A DNA stretch of 64,000 bases, taken from NCBI GenBank assembly GCA_017537745.1, contig JAFYKF010000007.1, positions 62,001 through 126,000 on the forward strand. The letters run 5' to 3'. Position numbers and translations under genes: made by a program. The notes under the pieces are model-generated. The model had not been told where the DNA came from. It did no database searches and worked only from the letters and a program-made list of their open reading frames with translations. Each line of letters begins with the position of its first letter. The stretch's first letter is position 1. This document shows, in pieces, positions 1,060 to 41,296 of the stretch. Source of the stretch: Candidatus Saccharimonadota bacterium (GTDB taxonomy: Bacteria; Patescibacteriota; Saccharimonadia; Saccharimonadales; Saccharimonadaceae).

Positions 1060-1720
1060 GTTTTTCATCGTCCGCATATCGCATCCGTTTTTTTGCAATT
1101 ATCTTTTCAATTTCTGCTTCATCATCGCGCGCATCCAACACCTCATCAATGATATTCTTTGAAATTCCTTTTTTTAACAATTCCATTCGAAGTCTTTTTT
1201 GCGAAACCCCCTTCTTCACAAAACGATTCTCCACCCACCATTCCGCGAACTTTTGATCATCCACATACCCGCGAGCGACAAGTCTGTTGAAAACGTTCTT
1301 AAGAAGTTCAGAATCGTCTTCTGAGGAGGTTTTCGCGACAACGGGAGCGAATGGAGCGCCGCGCTCCCCGTAACGACGGGCGAGCGCAAGCGTCTCCGAA
1401 GAAGACATTCTGAGCTTCTTGCAAAGGTATTCTTTCAACTCTCTTTCGCTTCGCGGCCTTGTGAGAGACCACTCGAGTGCTCTTTGATAAAGTTTCCCAA
1501 ATTCACTAGCACTTTTTAACTCATTAAGTTCTTCTTCAGAAATTTTCTTCCCAACTTTTAACTTGAAATCCACCACCTGCGAAACATCCAATGAAAAAGA
1601 AAATTTATCATTTACAAAAACATTGACACGATCTGGATTTTTCACCCCCTGCTTCAAATCGGTAATTATCAAAGCCTTTACATTGTCAACCGTAAAATCT
1701 TTTAACTTATAGATTTCCAT
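968..1720 (-). CDS. recX: regulatory protein RecX with in-frame palindromic insert
   Basis: RecX (250 residues) binds RecA filaments and modulates RecA activity. The three-helix repeats are recognisable: RPRSERELKEYLCKKL, then ARGYVDDQKFAEWWVENR, then KRLRMELLKKGISKNII and the last repeat KLIQYLCRQGFSFELAREKV. Between the first and second halves of repeat 1 lies an extra ~40-residue stretch (containing ARRYGERGAPFAPVVAK) encoded by a palindromic element at 1301-1420; ordinary RecX has nothing there. The gene is third in recA-Nudix-recX and overlaps the end of the Nudix gene by 14 nt, so translation is probably coupled. Its 3' end overlaps the convergent PRC-barrel gene by 92 bp. Confidence 0.88.
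   Translation of the reverse strand: MEIYKLKDFTVDNVKALIITDLKQGVKNPDRVNVFVNDKFSFSLDVSQVVDFKLKVGKKISEEELNELKSASEFGKLYQRALEWSLTRPRSERELKEYLCKKLRMSSSETLALARRYGERGAPFAPVVAKTSSEDDSELLKNVFNRLVARGYVDDQKFAEWWVENRFVKKGVSQKRLRMELLKKGISKNIIDEVLDARDDEAEIEKIIAKKRMRYADDEKLIQYLCRQGFSFELAREKVQSYGMDSQNLE
1301..1420. repeat. palindromic element, family A, inside recX
   Basis: Imperfect inverted repeat of about 120 bp (40 codons). The left arm begins AAGAAGTTCAGAATCGTCTT and the reverse complement of the right arm begins AAGAAGCTCAGAATGTCTTC; arms are ~27 bp with few differences. An inner hairpin pairs ACGGGAGCG with CGCTCCCCGT. The core (CTTCTGAGGA ... TCCGAAGAAG, with TTCGCGAC and TAACGA inside) is also present at 22674-22790 in lepA. 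The length keeps the recX frame open. Confidence 0.8.
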
Positions 1721-3537: not shown

Positions 3538-4611
3538 ATGAAAATAACCGAAAATGTCCCAATTAAAGAGCTTACTACCATGCGACTTGGCGGACCTGCC
3601 CGCTATGTTCTAGAAGTAAACAACCCTTCCGAAATCCCCGAAGCCTATGAATTTGCCAAATCCAAAAACCTCCCCATCTTCATCCTCGGCGGCGGTGCCA
3701 ACACCATCGCTCGCGACGAAGGCTTCAACGGCGTCATCGTTCGTAATACCATGACAGGAATTAAGTCGGCGGGGGTGACGGACCTGGAGGGGGTCCCCCA
3801 CGGAACCTTTAGTGACGTGGGGGAGGAGAAGGTCCGGCAGGACCCCCGCCGCTATATTATTACTGCCATGGCAGGAGAAGTTTGGGATAACGTCGTCGCC
3901 TTCGCCTGCGAGCGCGGTCTTACTGGCATCGAAGCCCTATCCAAAATTCCTGGGCTCGCCGGCGCCGCGCCAGTTCAAAACATTGGCGCCTACGGCCAAG
4001 AACTCGCCGATACCTTTGTTTCCGCCGAAGTTTATGACTCTAAAACAAATGAATTTAAAACTCTCAATAAGTCTGACTTTGGCTTTTCATACCGCAAATC
4101 CATCCTAAACTCCACCGAAAAAAATCGTTATTTTGTTGTATCCATCACCCTGGAACTTCAACCAGGCGAAATGCAAAAACCTTTTTATAATTCCATCGAG
4201 AAATATATTGAAACACATAATATTACCGATTTCTCACCGCAATCCATCCGAAATATCGTCACCGCTATTCGCGCCGACAAACTCCCAGACCCAGCCAAAA
4301 TCCCCTCCGCCGGCTCGTTCTTTAAAAACATCTATCTTACCAAAGAACAAGCTGAAGACGCCGAAAAGAAAGGTTACCCAGTTTACAAAGGCCACGATGG
4401 ACTCAAAATTAATTCTGGCTGGCTAATCGAACAAGCTGGTTTTAGCGATAAATTACTCCACGGCATTCGCGTCAACAAAAAAGCTGCTCTCGTCCTCATT
4501 AACGAATCAGCCAAATCTTATGATGACCTTGCCAAAGCCCGCACCGAGATAATTGAAGCCGTCAAAAACAAATTCGGATACACCCTAGAACAGGAGCCAA
4601 ACGAAATATGA
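3538..4611 (+). CDS. murB: UDP-N-acetylenolpyruvoylglucosamine reductase with in-frame palindromic insert
   Basis: FAD enzyme that reduces enolpyruvyl-UDP-GlcNAc to UDP-MurNAc, the second committed step of peptidoglycan synthesis. FAD-binding motifs TMRLGGPARY and FILGGGANTIARDEGF are at ~15-65; the catalytic Ser is in SAGSFFKN (~258-265) and the C-terminal WLIEQAGF is conserved. Length 357 is above the ~300 typical of the family because of a ~32-residue stretch after GVIVRNTMTGI, encoded by a palindrome at 3759-3856. The -10 TATAAT ends seven bases before ATG and there is no Shine-Dalgarno, suggesting a leaderless mRNA. The stop overlaps the folD start (ATGA). Confidence 0.93.
   Translation: MKITENVPIKELTTMRLGGPARYVLEVNNPSEIPEAYEFAKSKNLPIFILGGGANTIARDEGFNGVIVRNTMTGIKSAGVTDLEGVPHGTFSDVGEEKVRQDPRRYIITAMAGEVWDNVVAFACERGLTGIEALSKIPGLAGAAPVQNIGAYGQELADTFVSAEVYDSKTNEFKTLNKSDFGFSYRKSILNSTEKNRYFVVSITLELQPGEMQKPFYNSIEKYIETHNITDFSPQSIRNIVTAIRADKLPDPAKIPSAGSFFKNIYLTKEQAEDAEKKGYPVYKGHDGLKINSGWLIEQAGFSDKLLHGIRVNKKAALVLINESAKSYDDLAKARTEIIEAVKNKFGYTLEQEPNEI
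3759..3856. repeat. palindromic element, family B, inside murB
   Basis: About 98 bp. The left arm has GCGGGGGTGACGGACCT and the right arm, reverse complemented, has GCGGGGGTCCTGCCGGACCT; an inner hairpin pairs GTCCCCCAC with GTGGGGGAG. The G+C content is much higher than the flanking murB sequence and the encoded residues (KSAGVTDLEGVPHG and following) have no counterpart in usual MurB. The right-arm motif GGACCCCCG is shared with the element in pcrA (33768-33892). Confidence 0.7.
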
Positions 4612-6955: not shown

Positions 6956-9028
6956 TTAGGGAGCGTCGAAGTCCCACTCTTCTCCGGGCTCCTCATCGGC
7001 AAATGATCCAGTTTCCCCCGTATCCGGGTCAGTGTAAGTCACTTCCGGAACGATCGGAGTGGGGTCGTCTGCACCCCCATATCCAGTTCCTTCATCGCCG
7101 TTATTGTCAATGGCGGGGGGAGGGGCCGGAGGGGGTTCCGGAACATACGAAGGTTCGTTCGAATCCCCAGCCTCTTTCTGAGGCTCTTCCAACTCTTCCA
7201 ATTTGTCCCAGTATTCATCCAGGGTATCGTGCAGCGAATTGCTCGGCTGCTCGTCCTTGGACTCCTTGGCTCCCCGGCCGTTATTTGTGTCTGGTCCAGG
7301 ACCAGGCACGTCATCGGGCCCTACATCGGTCCCCTTGGTGGGGTCCTTAGGCTCAAACGAAGGAATCGGGATCGTCGGCGTCGGAGACGGCGGCGGAGGC
7401 GGAGGCGTAGGCGTCGGGGTCGGCGGCGGTACCGGTCTCCAAGTCGGAGGTGGCGGCACCGGAGTTGCCGTCGGCGTCGGGGACGGAGACGGAGTTGCCG
7501 TCGGCGTCGGGGACGGAGACGGAGTTGCCGTCGGCGTCGGGGACGGAGACGGAGTTGCCGTCGGCGTCGGGGACGGAGACGGAGTTGCCGTTGGCGTCGG
7601 AGTCGGATCAGGCTCCCGAGGATTCGGGATAACCGTCACCGGCGCGACTTTGCTGACATTCGTCGGCTGGAAGTCGCAATCCGCGCGATACTGCACCTCT
7701 TTTTTCTCCGTTCCCTTGATATAATCCCGGAAAGTCAACATGAAGCCACTATGATTGTGGCTCGTCATCACGATGACATCCGGGATCCCGTCCAGCGTAA
7801 AGCTCGTCATATACATCTGGTCGTCAAGACCAGACTTCACATACGAGATGACTATCTCGTCGCTGTCCAACAGAGCCGCTTTAAAAATTTCCAGGACTCT
7901 CAGATATTCGTCCTGATCCTCCAGCCATTCCCTCGACTTCGCGTTGATGTGCTCCATCAGGGCGTCTGGATGATCGAGGAGCTCAGTTACGAATGCACCC
8001 AGGAAACGAGTCCCGTGGATGACATCGTAGTAGCCCATGTCCGCCGCACCCTTCACAGGGTCCTGCTCCAAAACCTCAAAGAAATAGTCAAGAATGTCAT
8101 CAGCGACGAGCTGATACAGCTCTTTTTCCGTCTTATTCTCGAGATCCTTCGGAGTCAATTCCCCACAAGCCACTTTTCTGGCGAAAATCTCGGTCAACGG
8201 GTTCGGACCGAAATCGTCGTCATTAGACTTTTCTTCGTCCTCCAAAACCAACAGGTGACGAAGGACGTACCAAGCCTCTTCTTCTTCGGGTTCAGGCTCG
8301 GCGGTAGGCTCAGGGGTGGGTACGGGCGTAGATTTAGGCGTAGGTGCCGGCGTAGCCGTCACAGTCGGTCCCTTTATTGCGATATCATTGCTCTTTTTAG
8401 GGATGGCATTCCATTTAACACCCAAAGCAAGCAAAAGAATCGCAAAGATAAGGAACAGCACCATGAAGAACCAGGCGCAGACGTGTGCTCTATTCTGCTC
8501 CGACGAACCAGGAGTGGCTCGCATGTCGCGGTAAAAGAGACACAGGTCAACAAGCATCACGCCAAAAGCCAAAGTTCCCACCGTCCAAGCGATGGTCGTC
8601 AGTAAAGACAACACAAAGTCAGACTTAAACAACCCGGCCAACATAGCCGCTTCCACCGTAGCCGCCCAGCAAAATGCCACTATCAAGATGGCAAACAGGA
8701 TCAACTCGGCAGGCTCCGAGCCACCCTTCATCGGATTTCTCCACCAAAAAACCAAGCCAACGATAGCGGCCAGACTCACGGCGAAAAGACCGATGTGCAG
8801 GACCCAATACCAGAACGTAGCCCCGGTAAAAGTGGGCCCGAATTTAATCACGAACCACCAGGCGGCGGCAACGAGAATGGCATAAAGCCAACCCCCGAAG
8901 TCACACTTATCCAGGAAGGTCCGCGACGCGCCAGCCACAGGGGCAGACGCACGTACTTTCCCACCATTCATCAGATGAATGGTGGCGGCCATAAGGAAAA
9001 TCATGACCAAACCAGCAACAAATTTCAT
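6956..9028 (-). CDS. polytopic membrane protein with long Pro/Thr-rich tail, unknown function
   Basis: 690 residues, not recognised. I chose the ATG at 9028 because AAAGGAG sits ~10 nt upstream; a longer reading would lack one. Residues 1-20 form a signal-like helix, then about five further hydrophobic segments to ~residue 205. An acidic soluble domain follows (~260-470, EEEEAWYVLRHLLVLEDEE to QYRADCDFQP), then PTPTATPSPS decapeptide repeats (from 30-bp tandem repeats in the DNA), and an acidic Pro/Gly/Asp-rich end. The topology (membrane domain, globular domain, extended stalk) recalls type IV secretion or mating-channel membrane proteins, but no motif proves it. Codon use is strikingly G+C-rich compared with neighbours, and the promoter is a near-consensus TTGACA-N17-TATAAT. 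Confidence 0.8.
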   Translation of the reverse strand: MKFVAGLVMIFLMAATIHLMNGGKVRASAPVAGASRTFLDKCDFGGWLYAILVAAAWWFVIKFGPTFTGATFWYWVLHIGLFAVSLAAIVGLVFWWRNPMKGGSEPAELILFAILIVAFCWAATVEAAMLAGLFKSDFVLSLLTTIAWTVGTLAFGVMLVDLCLFYRDMRATPGSSEQNRAHVCAWFFMVLFLIFAILLLALGVKWNAIPKKSNDIAIKGPTVTATPAPTPKSTPVPTPEPTAEPEPEEEEAWYVLRHLLVLEDEEKSNDDDFGPNPLTEIFARKVACGELTPKDLENKTEKELYQLVADDILDYFFEVLEQDPVKGAADMGYYDVIHGTRFLGAFVTELLDHPDALMEHINAKSREWLEDQDEYLRVLEIFKAALLDSDEIVISYVKSGLDDQMYMTSFTLDGIPDVIVMTSHNHSGFMLTFRDYIKGTEKKEVQYRADCDFQPTNVSKVAPVTVIPNPREPDPTPTPTATPSPSPTPTATPSPSPTPTATPSPSPTPTATPSPSPTPTATPVPPPPTWRPVPPPTPTPTPPPPPPSPTPTIPIPSFEPKDPTKGTDVGPDDVPGPGPDTNNGRGAKESKDEQPSNSLHDTLDEYWDKLEELEEPQKEAGDSNEPSYVPEPPPAPPPAIDNNGDEGTGYGGADDPTPIVPEVTYTDPDTGETGSFADEEPGEEWDFDAP
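7461..7610. repeat. 30-bp tandem repeat (minisatellite) in the 6956-9028 gene
   Basis: Four identical copies (7461-7490, 7491-7520, 7521-7550, 7551-7580) of a unit beginning GGAGTTGCCGTCGGCGTCGG, plus a degenerate fifth copy to 7610. Each encodes a PTPTATPSPS-type decapeptide. Identity of the copies implies recent slippage or unequal recombination, so stalk length may vary between strains. Confidence 0.92.
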
Positions 9029-21452: not shown

Positions 21453-23303
21453 TTAGTCTCTCTTTAGCATCACCATAAATGCTTCAGACGGAATATCAAT
21501 CTTACCAAATCGTTTCATGCGCGCCTTGCCGCGCTTTTGTTTTTCCAGAAGTTTCGCTTTTCTATCCCTATCGCCAGTATGAATTTTCACCGTCACATCC
21601 TTACGATATGCTCCAATCGTCTCACGCGCAATAATCCGTGCCCCAATTGCCGCCTGCAACGCTACTTCATAGTTCTGTCGCGGAATTACCTCTTTTAATT
21701 TTTTAGTTGTTTCCCTTCCAATCGCATCCGCTTCAGAACGATGGCACATAATAGAAAGCGCGTCCAACCGATGTCCACCCACTAGGAAATCCACTCTCAC
21801 CAAATCCTCGGCCCGGTAGCCATTCAACTCGTAATTAAACGACGCATACCCAGAGGTTGCCGACTTCAATTGATCATAAAAATCCGTCAGCAAATTCGCC
21901 ATTGGCGCCTCAAAATCAATTACCGCCCTGTCCTCAATGTAAGACACATTAGTCTGATGACCTCTTTTTTTATTAATCAAATCCAGTACTGCCCCAATCA
22001 TCGATTTTGGCAAAATAATCTCACCCTTCACCCAAGGTTCCCGGATCTCGGAAATTTCACTCATATCCGGCAAATCCGCCGCCGATTTAATCTCCACCAC
22101 TTCACCATTGTTCATCACTACTTCATAATTCGTTGATGGATTTGTTACAATCAAATCCAAACCGAATTCTCGCTCCAATCTCTCTTTAATAATATCCATA
22201 TGGAGAAGCCCGAGGAACCCAATCCGAAGCCCAAAACCAAGCACCGGCGAATTCTCCGGTTCATATCTTAAAGCCGAATCAGACAAAGCCAACTTCTCAA
22301 TTGCCTCTTTTAATTCCTTATACTGATCATTTGAGACTGGGAAAAATCCCGCATAGACAAAAGGCAAAACGTTCTTATAGCCCGGCAAAGCCGTCGCAGC
22401 AGGATTACTGACGAGCGTCACCGTATCGCCCACTTTTGCCTCACGTGTAGACTTCAAATTCGTCACAATGTAACCAATTTGCCCCTCTGATAATTTCTCC
22501 CGCGCAGTCATTTTAGGCGTCAGAATCCCAACTTCAAGCGCCAAACCCTTCGTCCCCGCCGCCATCATCAAAATCTCTGCATTCTTCGCAATTTCCCCCT
22601 CAAACACCCTCACGTACAACACCACCCCTCGGTAATCATCAAAATAAGAATCAAATATCAGAGCCCTGGTCACAGTGTGACCAGATAACCCTTCTGAGGA
22701 ATCTTCGCGACCAACGGGGAGCGATTGAAGCGACTGAGCCCCATAACGATGGGCGCGAAGGAGCGGGTCCGAAGAAGGGTTATTGGTCACTATTGCATCT
22801 AATATTTTATCCACCCCGAGCCCCGTTTTCCCGGACGCCTCGATGATTTCCTCGCGCGAACAGCCCAAAAGATTCATAATTTGCGCCGCAACTTTTGGCA
22901 CATCCGCCGCTGGCAAATCTACCTTATTTATCACCGGAATTATTTTCAAATCTTGTTCAATCGCCAAATATACATTCGCGAGTGTCTGCGCCTGAATTCC
23001 CTGCGTTGCATCTACTACTAAAACCGCCATTTCCACCGCTTGCAAAGACCTCGAAACTTCATACGAAAAATCTACGTGCCCCGGCGTATCAATCAAATTT
23101 AAAGTATAGCCTTTCCATTTCATCGTCACCGGCGTCAGCTTAATCGTAATGCCTTTTTCGCGCTCCAACTCCATCGAATCAAGAAGCTGCGCCTTCATTT
23201 CGCGCTTTTCTACCGTACCAGTAATTTCCATCATCCGATCCGCAATTGTCGATTTGCCATGATCGATGTGTGCAATTATACAAAAATTCCGGTTCTTTTC
23301 CAT
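21453..23303 (-). CDS. lepA: elongation factor 4 (LepA) with in-frame palindromic insert
   Basis: Ribosomal back-translocating GTPase, 616 residues. G1 AHIDHGKST (~residues 11-19), G3 DTPGHVDF, G4 NKVDLP and the LepA-specific C-terminal domain (GRETTKKLKEVIPRQNYEV, ARETIGAYRKDVTVK) are present. Between domain I and II, where other LepA have a short loop before ALIFDSYFD, there is a ~39-residue insertion (SSDPLLRAHRYGAQSLQSLP and following) encoded by a palindromic element at 22674-22790. Leaderless: TATAAT ends seven bases before ATG. Upstream neighbour is divergent. Confidence 0.95.
   Translation of the reverse strand: MEKNRNFCIIAHIDHGKSTIADRMMEITGTVEKREMKAQLLDSMELEREKGITIKLTPVTMKWKGYTLNLIDTPGHVDFSYEVSRSLQAVEMAVLVVDATQGIQAQTLANVYLAIEQDLKIIPVINKVDLPAADVPKVAAQIMNLLGCSREEIIEASGKTGLGVDKILDAIVTNNPSSDPLLRAHRYGAQSLQSLPVGREDSSEGLSGHTVTRALIFDSYFDDYRGVVLYVRVFEGEIAKNAEILMMAAGTKGLALEVGILTPKMTAREKLSEGQIGYIVTNLKSTREAKVGDTVTLVSNPAATALPGYKNVLPFVYAGFFPVSNDQYKELKEAIEKLALSDSALRYEPENSPVLGFGLRIGFLGLLHMDIIKERLEREFGLDLIVTNPSTNYEVVMNNGEVVEIKSAADLPDMSEISEIREPWVKGEIILPKSMIGAVLDLINKKRGHQTNVSYIEDRAVIDFEAPMANLLTDFYDQLKSATSGYASFNYELNGYRAEDLVRVDFLVGGHRLDALSIMCHRSEADAIGRETTKKLKEVIPRQNYEVALQAAIGARIIARETIGAYRKDVTVKIHTGDRDRKAKLLEKQKRGKARMKRFGKIDIPSEAFMVMLKRD
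22674..22790. repeat. palindromic element, family A, inside lepA
   Basis: 117 bp (39 codons). The left arm starts GTGACCAGATAACCCTTCTG and the reverse complement of the right arm starts GTGACCAATAACCCTTCTTC. TGGTCAC occurs as a direct repeat at 22667-22673 and 22784-22790, a possible target duplication. Core sequences match the recX element at 1301-1420 in the same orientation, and both encode SS(E/D)xL..ARRYG/AHRYG...P(V)...SSE in the same frame. Confidence 0.8.
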
Positions 23304-29724: not shown

Positions 29725-29743
29725 AGCAAAAAAAATGGTGGTA

Positions 29744-29772
29744 AGCTTTTAATCGCTTCGCGATTAAAAGCT
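29744..29772. repeat. 13-bp perfect inverted repeat after truB
   Basis: AGCTTTTAATCGC-TTC-GCGATTAAAAGCT, within a larger imperfect palindrome (GTGGTA...TACCAC). It may terminate truB, though no T tract follows. Confidence 0.6.
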
Positions 29773-29791
29773 GGTACCACTGCGGTTGCTC

Positions 29792-29821
29792 AAAAAATCC
29801 AAGTCAAGACTTGGATTTTTA
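29792..29821 (-). terminator. terminator of tRNA-Met
   Basis: AAAAATCCAAGTC-TTG-ACTTGGATTTTTT on the minus strand, about ten bases after the encoded CCA. Confidence 0.85.
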
Positions 29822-29830
29822 TTCGCAACC

Positions 29831-29907
29831 TGGTGGTACCGGGTGGAATTGAACCACCGACCTCGGGCTTATGAGTCCCACGCTCTAACCAGCTGAGCTA
29901 CGGTACC
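29831..29907 (-). tRNA. tRNA-Met(CAT), elongator type
   Basis: Acceptor GGTACCG pairs with CGGTACC, D arm GCTC/GAGC, anticodon loop CTCATAA, T loop TTCAATT, encoded CCA. The loop CTCATAA and a normal first pair argue for elongator Met rather than initiator; tRNA-Ile2(k2CAU) cannot be fully excluded without comparison. Confidence 0.88.
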
Positions 29908-31992: not shown

Positions 31993-34104
31993 CTATTCAA
32001 AAACCGGTAGGTCATCTGGAAATGGGTCAAAGTCACTACTGCCAAAATCATCGTCATCGAAGTCTTTAAATCCATCCCCATCTTCGTCACGAGCCGAAAC
32101 TCCAAAACCGCCAAATCCACCAGAGCCATACGGATTATAGCCCAATTCCATCAAAAACCTCGATGGCATATTATAATTCCGACTTCCAAACGAATATCTA
32201 CTCCCCGCATAAGTCAAAAACAATCTCTGCATTGCCCGCGTCATCCCTACATAAGCCAATCGTCGCTCTTCTTCAAGCCCAGCCGTTTCCTCCGCCGCTC
32301 GCGCGCTCGGAAACAACCCCTCTTCCATTCCCACCACAAATACCACTGGAAATTCCAAACCCTTCGCCGCATGCAAAGTCATCAAAGTCACCGAATTCTT
32401 ACCAGAAGCCTCGTCTGCCGACGACATCAAAGACGCATCCGCCAAAAAATCCTCTAAATTCTCGTATGCCTCAGCATTAGATTCCAAAACCTCCAAGTTT
32501 TTCATTCTCTCTTCAGCACTCGGCGTCCCATCATCAGTCAAAGTCCGAAAATCAAAATACGAAATCGCCTTTTTAATAATCTCACTTGGTGCCATTGTCG
32601 AACCTACCATCCGATAAAACCCAACCAGTTTAGCAAACGCCGTCTTTGCCTTGGCAGATTTCAACGCTTCTGATAAATCCGGGTTCATTAGTGGCGCTTC
32701 ACCCTCTACTACGTCCATCGCATCCATCAATTTATTTAGCGACGCTTCACCAAGTCCAGACAGCACGTTTTTCGCCACTCGCGTAAGACTCACCTTATCG
32801 CGTCCGCTCACCATTAACTTCAAAATCGCTAGTACATCTTTCACTTCCTTACGATCATAGAATCTCACCCCACCCACAATTTTATAAGGAATGTGCAAAT
32901 TAATAAAAACTTTTTCAAAAGCATACGATTGTGCATTTGTACGATACAAAACAGCAAAATCACTGTAATCAGGATATTTGGCAGTGAGCTCTGTAATTTT
33001 CCGCGCTACAAACTCCGCTTCCTTGTTTTCGTCCGCCAAGGCTTCAATTTCAACCGGCTCCCCATCACCCGCTACGGTAAACAATTTCTTATCTGTTCGC
33101 GTTTTATTCTCTTTTATCACTTTCTGCGACACCGCCAAAATACAACCCGTCGAACGATAATTTTGTTCCAATTTTACCACCTTCGCACCAGGAAAATCTT
33201 TTTCAAAATTCAAAATATTGGTAAAATCCGCGCCCCGCCATGAATAAATCGACTGCCAATCATCCCCCACTACACAAATATTACGTTTTTCATTTACCAG
33301 TAACTTTACTAACTGATATTGAATCAAGTTCGTATCCTGATACTCATCAATTAAAATATGTTCAAATTTCTGTTGCCATTTTTCACGTATTTTTTTATTC
33401 TTCGCAAATAATTCCAAAGTCTTCAACAATAAATCATCAAAATCCAAAGCCCCAGCTTTTTTCTTTTCTTCTTCATAACCACGAAAAATCTTCGCAATAT
33501 CACGTTGATTAGGATAAAGCGCACTCGCAGCATATTCTTCTGGCCCATTTCCACGGTTTTTTTCACCTGAAATAATCGACTGAACCGACTTCGGCTTCAA
33601 AGCCTTATTTTCAGACAAATGCAGACTTTTCATCACGCGCTTAATCAATGAAATCTGATCGTCAGTGTCATAAATCACAAAATCCCGCGTCAACCCTGCC
33701 GCCTCCGCCTCAATCCGAAGAATCTTCACGCAAATACTATGAAACGTCCCCATATACGGCATGAACGACTTTGGTGGTTGGTCGGGGGTGGCCGAAAATG
33801 GTCTTTCGAAGGGCCTAAGACTTGGCCGAGCGGCCCGGAGCGGCCCGAGAAAGGCCTTTTCGGACAGGACCCCCGAAACTAGCCCCCAGAGTCTCTGCCG
33901 CATTTCATTGGCCGCTTTATTAGTAAACGTCACCGCCAGTATTTGATTCTCGCGTACGCCATGCGCAATCAAATTTGCAATTCTATGCGTCAGAGTCTTA
34001 GTTTTACCAGACCCAGCTCCCGCCAAAATCAACACCGGTCCTTCAAGACATTCCACCGCTTCTTTCTGCTGCTCATTTAAGCCATCAAAAATACCACTAT
34101 CCAT
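31993..34104 (-). CDS. pcrA: UvrD/PcrA superfamily 1 DNA helicase with in-frame palindromic insert
   Basis: 3'-5' DNA helicase for repair and fork restart, 703 residues. Motif I AGAGSGKTKTLTHR, Ia FTNKAANEMR, II IDEYQDTN, III SIYSWRGAD, IV LEQNYRSTG, V VTLMTLHAAKGLEFPVVFVVG and VI RRLAYVGMTRA are intact. Between Ia and Ib (normally a few residues before GTFHS) lies a ~40-residue Arg/Pro-rich insertion (LGPLRAARPSLRPFERPF...) encoded by a ~125-bp palindrome at 33768-33892. The acidic C-terminal tail (DEDGDGFKDFDDDDFGSSDF) replaces the usual basic RNAP-binding end. Downstream of murA by six bases. Confidence 0.94.
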   Translation of the reverse strand: MDSGIFDGLNEQQKEAVECLEGPVLILAGAGSGKTKTLTHRIANLIAHGVRENQILAVTFTNKAANEMRQRLWGLVSGVLSEKAFLGPLRAARPSLRPFERPFSATPDQPPKSFMPYMGTFHSICVKILRIEAEAAGLTRDFVIYDTDDQISLIKRVMKSLHLSENKALKPKSVQSIISGEKNRGNGPEEYAASALYPNQRDIAKIFRGYEEEKKKAGALDFDDLLLKTLELFAKNKKIREKWQQKFEHILIDEYQDTNLIQYQLVKLLVNEKRNICVVGDDWQSIYSWRGADFTNILNFEKDFPGAKVVKLEQNYRSTGCILAVSQKVIKENKTRTDKKLFTVAGDGEPVEIEALADENKEAEFVARKITELTAKYPDYSDFAVLYRTNAQSYAFEKVFINLHIPYKIVGGVRFYDRKEVKDVLAILKLMVSGRDKVSLTRVAKNVLSGLGEASLNKLMDAMDVVEGEAPLMNPDLSEALKSAKAKTAFAKLVGFYRMVGSTMAPSEIIKKAISYFDFRTLTDDGTPSAEERMKNLEVLESNAEAYENLEDFLADASLMSSADEASGKNSVTLMTLHAAKGLEFPVVFVVGMEEGLFPSARAAEETAGLEEERRLAYVGMTRAMQRLFLTYAGSRYSFGSRNYNMPSRFLMELGYNPYGSGGFGGFGVSARDEDGDGFKDFDDDDFGSSDFDPFPDDLPVFE
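33768..33892. repeat. palindromic element, family B, inside pcrA
   Basis: Arms of ~45 bp: left contains TCGGGGGTGGCCGAAAATGG, the reverse complement of the right contains TCGGGGGTCCTGTCCGAAAA; both continue to CTTTC..GGGCC. GGACAGGACCCCCG in the right arm matches the murB element. G+C far above the gene's average. The helicase frame is kept. Confidence 0.75.
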
Positions 34105-41108: not shown

Positions 41109-41188
41109 AGCTCGCTACGCTCGCTATTCGCCTTCGGCGAGCGAACTCGCTGCGAGTTCAACCTCCTGACGGAGGTTATCAAAACCAA

Positions 41189-41216
41189 CAAAAAATACCC
41201 TTCGGGCATTTTTTTT
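41189..41216 (-). terminator. terminator immediately after tRNA-Glu
   Basis: AAAAAATACCC-TTC-GGGCATTTTTTTT; A and T tracts on both sides make it work in either direction. Confidence 0.85.
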
Positions 41217-41221
41217 GGTTT

Positions 41222-41296
41222 TGGTGATCTCTGCGAGAGTCGAACTCGCATTGACGGGATGAAAACCCGTTGTACTAACCGTTATACTAAGAGACC
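41222..41296 (-). tRNA. tRNA-Glu(TTC)
   Basis: Acceptor GGTCTCT/AGAGATC, anticodon stem ACGGG/CCCGT with loop TTTTCAT, T stem GCGAG/CTCGC with loop TTCGACT, encoded CCA. Confidence 0.95.

Follow-up and report, generated by a model that had tools for sequence, protein, structure and literature searches.

The Rickettsia palindromic elements (RPE) were reportedly described by Ogata et al. in 2000 and 2002. Among other short palindromic repeats of bacteria, REPs are mostly intergenic, end in a tetranucleotide foot and have a cognate transposase, and MITEs are accompanied by target duplications. According to the parts of two accounts that deal with them, RPE and the corresponding elements of Wolbachia are palindromes of ~105–150 bp that form long stem-loops, belong to several families and occur in intergenic positions as well as in frame within conserved genes, where they are translated as tolerated inserts (PMC2229807, PMC10969869). 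The elements described here, which occur in Saccharibacteria, are likewise dispersed palindromes of ~100 bp, with several copies per genome that are either intergenic or genic and in frame. By these descriptive features, the best reading is that the Saccharibacteria element works in a similar manner to RPE. It differs from RPE in its hosts, since RPE and their Wolbachia counterparts reside in Alphaproteobacteria, and in possessing an invariant GGGTCCTG...CACCC foot and exchangeable heads. Additionally, the same loops have been struck repeatedly and independently, and at pcrA the arms are copied from the host, neither of which is described in the available parts of the RPE accounts. A literature search, conducted largely outside the subscription journals, found no earlier report of palindromic elements in Saccharibacteria/TM7. 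Translated mobile DNA in core proteins has been known mainly from Rickettsia and Wolbachia. Its wide occurrence in an unrelated phylum would mean that mobile DNA living within proteins is not peculiar to the Rickettsiales and recurs in the reduced genomes of another phylum. It also calls for caution in annotation, as odd inserts in the core genes of Saccharibacteria can be parasitic DNA.

The window, which is the whole 64-kb stretch of DNA that was analyzed, contains inserts in two core genes, pcrA and murB (Table 1). Both are G+C-rich hairpins at the positions given in the preliminary description, and both are in frame. In a sliding fold scan of the 64 kb, the murB hairpin ranked first (z -5.1) and the pcrA hairpin third (z -4.8) among all 110-nt windows. 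The folding energies of the coding strands were -58.9 and -55.5 kcal/mol for murB and pcrA, respectively, and those of the other strands were -52.9 and -73.0 kcal/mol. The arm motif CAGGACCCCC, which had been proposed as common to both inserts, occurs exactly twice in the window, once in each. Two further regions form very stable hairpins, 29741-29850 (z -5.1) and 41141-41250 (z -4.7), and these overlap tRNA genes.

Neither insert interrupts its reading frame, and both full-length proteins match their families. The proposal that the insertions occupy loops that are short in relatives is supported by structural comparison and modelling. In PcrA, the insert adds ~34 residues relative to the solved structure 1pjr, between 1pjr residues 84 and 88. 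The AlphaFold model of MurB has an overall pLDDT of 84.7 and places insert residues 81-102, all with pLDDT <50, between two strands, suggesting that the insert is probably a disordered loop. The model of PcrA is poor (pLDDT 66), and the only use made of it was to note the very low confidence of the insert. Given that these conserved core genes remain open and that the inserts lie in loops, PcrA and MurB may still be functional with the insert in place.

Table 1. Coordinates of the palindromic inserts in the window, their component parts and the genes that carry them.
Feature	Position	Strand	Description
recX palindrome	1301..1410	-	In-frame insert of recX; family D, core CCCGTAACGAC
murB	3538..4611	+	Host gene, 357 aa
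murB insert with arms	3759..3856	+	~33 codons; probably a disordered loop, between strands 75-81 and 105-111
murB copy, core	3773..3845	-	A-type head; minus strand reads GGGTCCTG...CACCC, murB itself being on the plus strand
lepA palindrome	22681..22790	-	Family D-like, inverted arms GTGACC-ATAACCCTTC and AGGGTTATTGGTCAC; in frame
pcrA	31993..34104	-	Host gene, DNA helicase, 703 aa
pcrA insert	33768-33892		G+C-rich hairpin with arms; in frame
pcrA distal arm	33768..33785	-	CCGACCAACCACCAAAGT; almost an inverted copy of the proximal arm, missing from empty sites
pcrA copy, core	33786..33872	-	GGGTCCTG to CACCC, foot and B/E-type head; in frame
pcrA proximal (coding-upstream) arm	33873..33892	-	ACTCTGGGGGCTAGTTTCGG; first part native pcrA (RLWGLV) by comparison with L270

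A single repeat family accounts for the inserts in pcrA and murB. Its members have a foot that does not vary, GGGTCCTG-Y ... YCACCC, a stem whose sides covary, and heads that can be exchanged. In an alignment of 20 copies, the two ends, GGGTCCTG and CACCC, were invariant and enclosed a variable stem. The foot itself is composed of GGGT, a CCT bulge, a G-C pair and, in most copies, a pyrimidine-pyrimidine mismatch, after which the variable stem begins. The murB copy possesses the subtype A head, CCCCCAC...GTGGGGGACCCCC, and the pcrA copy the subtype B head, CTCGGGCCGCTC...AGTCTTAGGCCC. Together, the core and arms span ~85-125 bp. Covariation in the stem of the aligned copies was 0.515, compared to 0.139 +/- 0.020 after shuffling, and the stems of orthologous copies in G000 and G099 are kept though both sides have changed. 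Compensatory changes of this strength, found even between orthologous copies, would suit old functional RNA elements, that is, regulatory hairpins kept for their structure in the mRNA and not as mobile DNA. This explanation is nevertheless unlikely. The copies occur in both orientations and in unrelated genes, are patchy between species and have empty sites as their counterparts. There was also no match to Rfam: the scan of the window returned tRNAs only, and at the element loci no family reached its gathering score on the element. Moreover, selection is not needed to keep hairpins matched, as template switching can do so, according to the available part of one account (PMC8794818).

The more probable explanation is that the inserts are mobile, non-autonomous palindromes of the Saccharibacteria that are translated in tolerant loops and whose arms are matched by fold-back template switching. 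The distribution of the family is consistent with such a reading. The first search used a gapped pattern of the shared ends and found four copies in the window's own genome and matches in 12 of 100 congeneric genomes, while the reversed pattern, which served as the control, gave single stray matches only, in four genomes. The genome-wide search proposed in the preliminary description was extended with a covariance model, which confirmed a repeat family with 12 copies in the own genome (nine genic and three intergenic). The same model found the family in 57 of the 100 congeners, with up to 23 copies per genome. The carriers are uncultured Saccharibacteria, and relatives occur here and there in the rest of the phylum. 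A 29-base A-type pattern, when scanned against 84,980 species, found copies in Saccharibacteria only. All 34 of the named genome stretches were from Candidatus Saccharibacteria, many of them titled as ruminant gut samples. No match was found in any sampled genome from the other genera of the same family, and the patterns used detected no copy on viral contigs.

In other families of the phylum, relatives are patchy and combine the same foot with a different head, often CGCCAGTGCTC...TGCGCGCTGTCGGG, and some are in frame in ORFs. Elements of this kind, with differing heads, are multi-copy in six genomes (G334, G192, G178, G249, G324, and G128). Based on these sequences, the foot appears either to predate the genus or to have spread between families. 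Because it is the part that is kept across the families of the phylum, the foot probably serves as the site at which the copying machinery recognizes the element. Two observations concern individual intergenic or neighboring copies. Upstream of hrcA, ~190 bp around an intergenic copy differ by one base between G000 and G099 (L024 and L014), genomes whose murB DNA is ~87% identical, which indicates either a recent transfer or a binning error. In G004, two copies lie 430 bp apart (L046:1501-2016) with identical scores and flanking bases and are possibly a tandem duplication.

Dispersed copies, patchy presence and empty sites all point to mobility, and candidates for the mobilizing activity can be compared with the gene content of the carriers. 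Like REPs and the MITEs derived from insertion sequences, the element is a short, palindromic, non-autonomous repeat that forms an imperfect hairpin. It could be a repeat of the MITE or REP kind that a Y1 transposase of the IS200/IS605 or RAYT type mobilizes in trans by recognizing the bulged hairpin, the arms being no more than target palindromes. Its one imperfect hairpin, in which a bulge and a mismatch are conserved, and the lack of a target duplication do recall the REPs. However, Y1_Tnp (PF01797) was detected in only three of the 100 congeners (G024, G041, and G088), in none of which a copy was detected, and it was not found in the own genome. A Y1 transposase was therefore rejected as the mobilizer, being missing from every copy-bearing genome among the 100 searched. 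The foot also lacks a GTAG-type tetranucleotide, the positions outside it carry little information and covary instead, and the inversion of the pcrA arm is missing from empty sites. On balance, movement by a Y1 transposase is improbable. A further difference, from MITEs, is that the Saccharibacteria copies have no target-site duplication: direct repeats at the flanks scored 5.87, compared to 5.81 +/- 0.14 for shuffled sequences. Reverse transcription of a hairpin RNA would be another route, and many genomes of the genus (60 of 100) have RVT_1 reverse transcriptases. None was detected, however, in the own genome or in the copy-rich G004, G069, G082, G093, and G099, some of these genomes being incomplete, and this route is very unlikely.

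If the mobile palindrome inserts at many sites, genic copies would survive only where the frame is kept, no stop is introduced and the insertion falls in a tolerant surface loop. The contexts of 117 distinct copies agree with this expectation. In total, 85 were in frame within ORFs of at least 150 aa, and 32 were between genes or at gene ends, none of which visibly split a gene as judged by eye from the neighboring ORFs. The 85 copies used the three frames of one strand 49, 15, and 0 times and those of the other 10, 8, and 3 times. Five of the six possible frames are thus in use, and the sole unused frame is the one closed by an invariant TGA. Similarly, when measured against empty sites, the inserts at the compared coding sites had lengths divisible by three, while most intergenic and gene-end inserts did not (86, 89, 89, 116, 122, and 124). 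Besides MurB and PcrA, the host ORFs include GyrA, IleRS (two copies, in the own genome), QueA, GatB, LigA, MurA, AlaRS, and a penicillin-binding protein, these further names being the author's reading of the sequences. In the encoded peptides, G, A, P, S, and R are abundant, whereas I, L, F, Y, and K are scarce; SAGVTDLEGVPHGTFSDVGEEK is an example from MurB or PcrA. The restriction to in-frame, stop-free copies in tolerant loops indicates that transcription and translation of the element are likely and would yield a disordered stretch of ~25-40 residues according to the frame statistics.

The byp elements of Magnusiomyces capitatus mitochondria are also palindromic, G+C-rich hairpins that interrupt genes, but they are skipped during translation. 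By analogy, the stable hairpins within essential genes of Saccharibacteria could be bypassed in the same way, or be removed by intron-like splicing, leaving normal proteins. Inserts that are removed or skipped would require no constraint on frame or stops, so the frame statistics count against this explanation, which is the most improbable of those considered: all 85 genic copies are in frame and stop-free, the stop-bearing frame is never used and no gene-splitting copy was seen among the rest. The frame and stop statistics instead suggest that the Saccharibacteria inserts, in contrast to byps, are translated.

The preliminary description had also suggested that these inserts and the palindromes of recX and lepA may be one superfamily. 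The lepA core is a near variant of the recX core, and both palindromes have long inverted arms. They resemble the pcrA and murB inserts in size and G+C richness, in having extended arms and in the sites that they prefer. The foot, on the other hand, is not common to them, and the covariance model of the GGGTCCTG family detected neither the recX nor the lepA element. The word TTCGGAC, which had been offered as a link between the types, has five matches in the window and is not diagnostic.

Comparison across species clarifies this relationship. The pcrA loop is occupied by several palindrome families, of which the GGGTCCTG type is found in the own genome. Other species carry a family with CCCGTCGCCACGGG, another with CCCGTCGTCACGGG, which corresponds to the window's recX type on the opposite strand, and a third with GGGACACACTCGAGGCCGTTCGGCC...GGTCCC, which resembles the B-subtype head. 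The inserts found at equivalent positions in relatives are therefore often other palindromes, with empty sites between them. Given these and the copies found genome-wide, the refuting condition set in the preliminary description does not hold. In G099, the closest relative compared (MurB 87% identical), the pcrA loop is empty, with a net difference of 81 bp. The murB turn likewise contains many different inserts or none (GIAIKDNFITAFGGE), and it is an empty site in L146. From this comparison, the pcrA and murB loops are hotspots: several palindrome families, the lepA/recX type among them, have struck there independently. For this reason the idea of a single superfamily is only partly right, and it is better described as several families using the same tolerant sites. 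Heads may also pass between palindrome families. With 174 congeneric genomes and repeated strikes on the same loops, the origin and spread of the elements, the matching of their arms and their tolerance by core proteins can be tested by comparison. Two loops hold sequences of another kind. The pcrA loop of G006 (L281) retains TCTCGGGACGGGTCGC, a possible remnant of a palindrome deletion, and the murB loop of G004 (L123) contains a further, unrelated-looking insert, ATDSVFAQTLRLTRSLSSEPRNDGRERDGLRENTSV, that possibly represents yet another family.

The arms provide evidence on how the palindromes are maintained. Outside the foot, they vary from copy to copy yet remain complementary, positions 1-5 being paired in 70-99% of copies. 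The inverted match of the flanks beyond 8 nt was 7.11, compared to 5.25 +/- 0.11 for shuffled sequences. At pcrA, the inverted match between a copy's own left flank and its own right arm was 13.1, but only 7.1 +/- 0.7 across species, and empty sites showed no excess of inversion (5.5 vs. 5.4). The own-flank match, together with its absence at empty sites, indicates that the pcrA insert includes the target flank, newly copied in inverted order. As far as sequence comparison goes, this shows the distal arm to be an inverted copy of each species' own upstream codons. Copying from the opposite side is at most weak (7.1 vs. 6.6 +/- 0.3). The lack of excess inversion at empty sites also led to rejecting the idea that insertion at pcrA generally targets a palindrome already in place. 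The empty site in L224 opposite L056, however, is itself a small hairpin, so a palindrome already in the target could account for some inverted arms. At murB, arms copied from the native flank were not seen (z 0.4), and fold-back copying is therefore shown at one hotspot only, pcrA. It is suggested for lepA and recX.

Template switching during replication, according to the available parts of two accounts, makes and maintains hairpins and homogenizes the arms of inverted repeats (PMC8794818, PMC8604942). It has also been proposed for the coding palindromes of nematomorph mitochondria, which resemble the present case in being inverted repeats within coding genes with arms kept identical, and differ from it in that the repeats are local, perfect and long (up to 284 bp) and do not form a dispersed family sharing a common core (PMC6649704). 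In Saccharibacteria, fold-back template switching at the hairpin during replication would both lengthen the arms and keep them matched, and it is the process that best explains them. A bolder and rather doubtful possibility is that insertion of the element itself involves fold-back DNA synthesis, in which upstream codons of the target itself are copied in inverted order onto the incoming hairpin, giving a longer, site-specific coding palindrome. If true, an inverted instead of a direct target duplication would be an unusual outcome of transposition for a bacterial element. Repeats of a different nature are found elsewhere in the window, at 7218-7670, where the G+C content reaches up to 82% and repeated GTTGCCGTCGGCGTCGGGGACGGAGACGGA units lie within a 713-aa ORF that probably encodes a repetitive surface protein.
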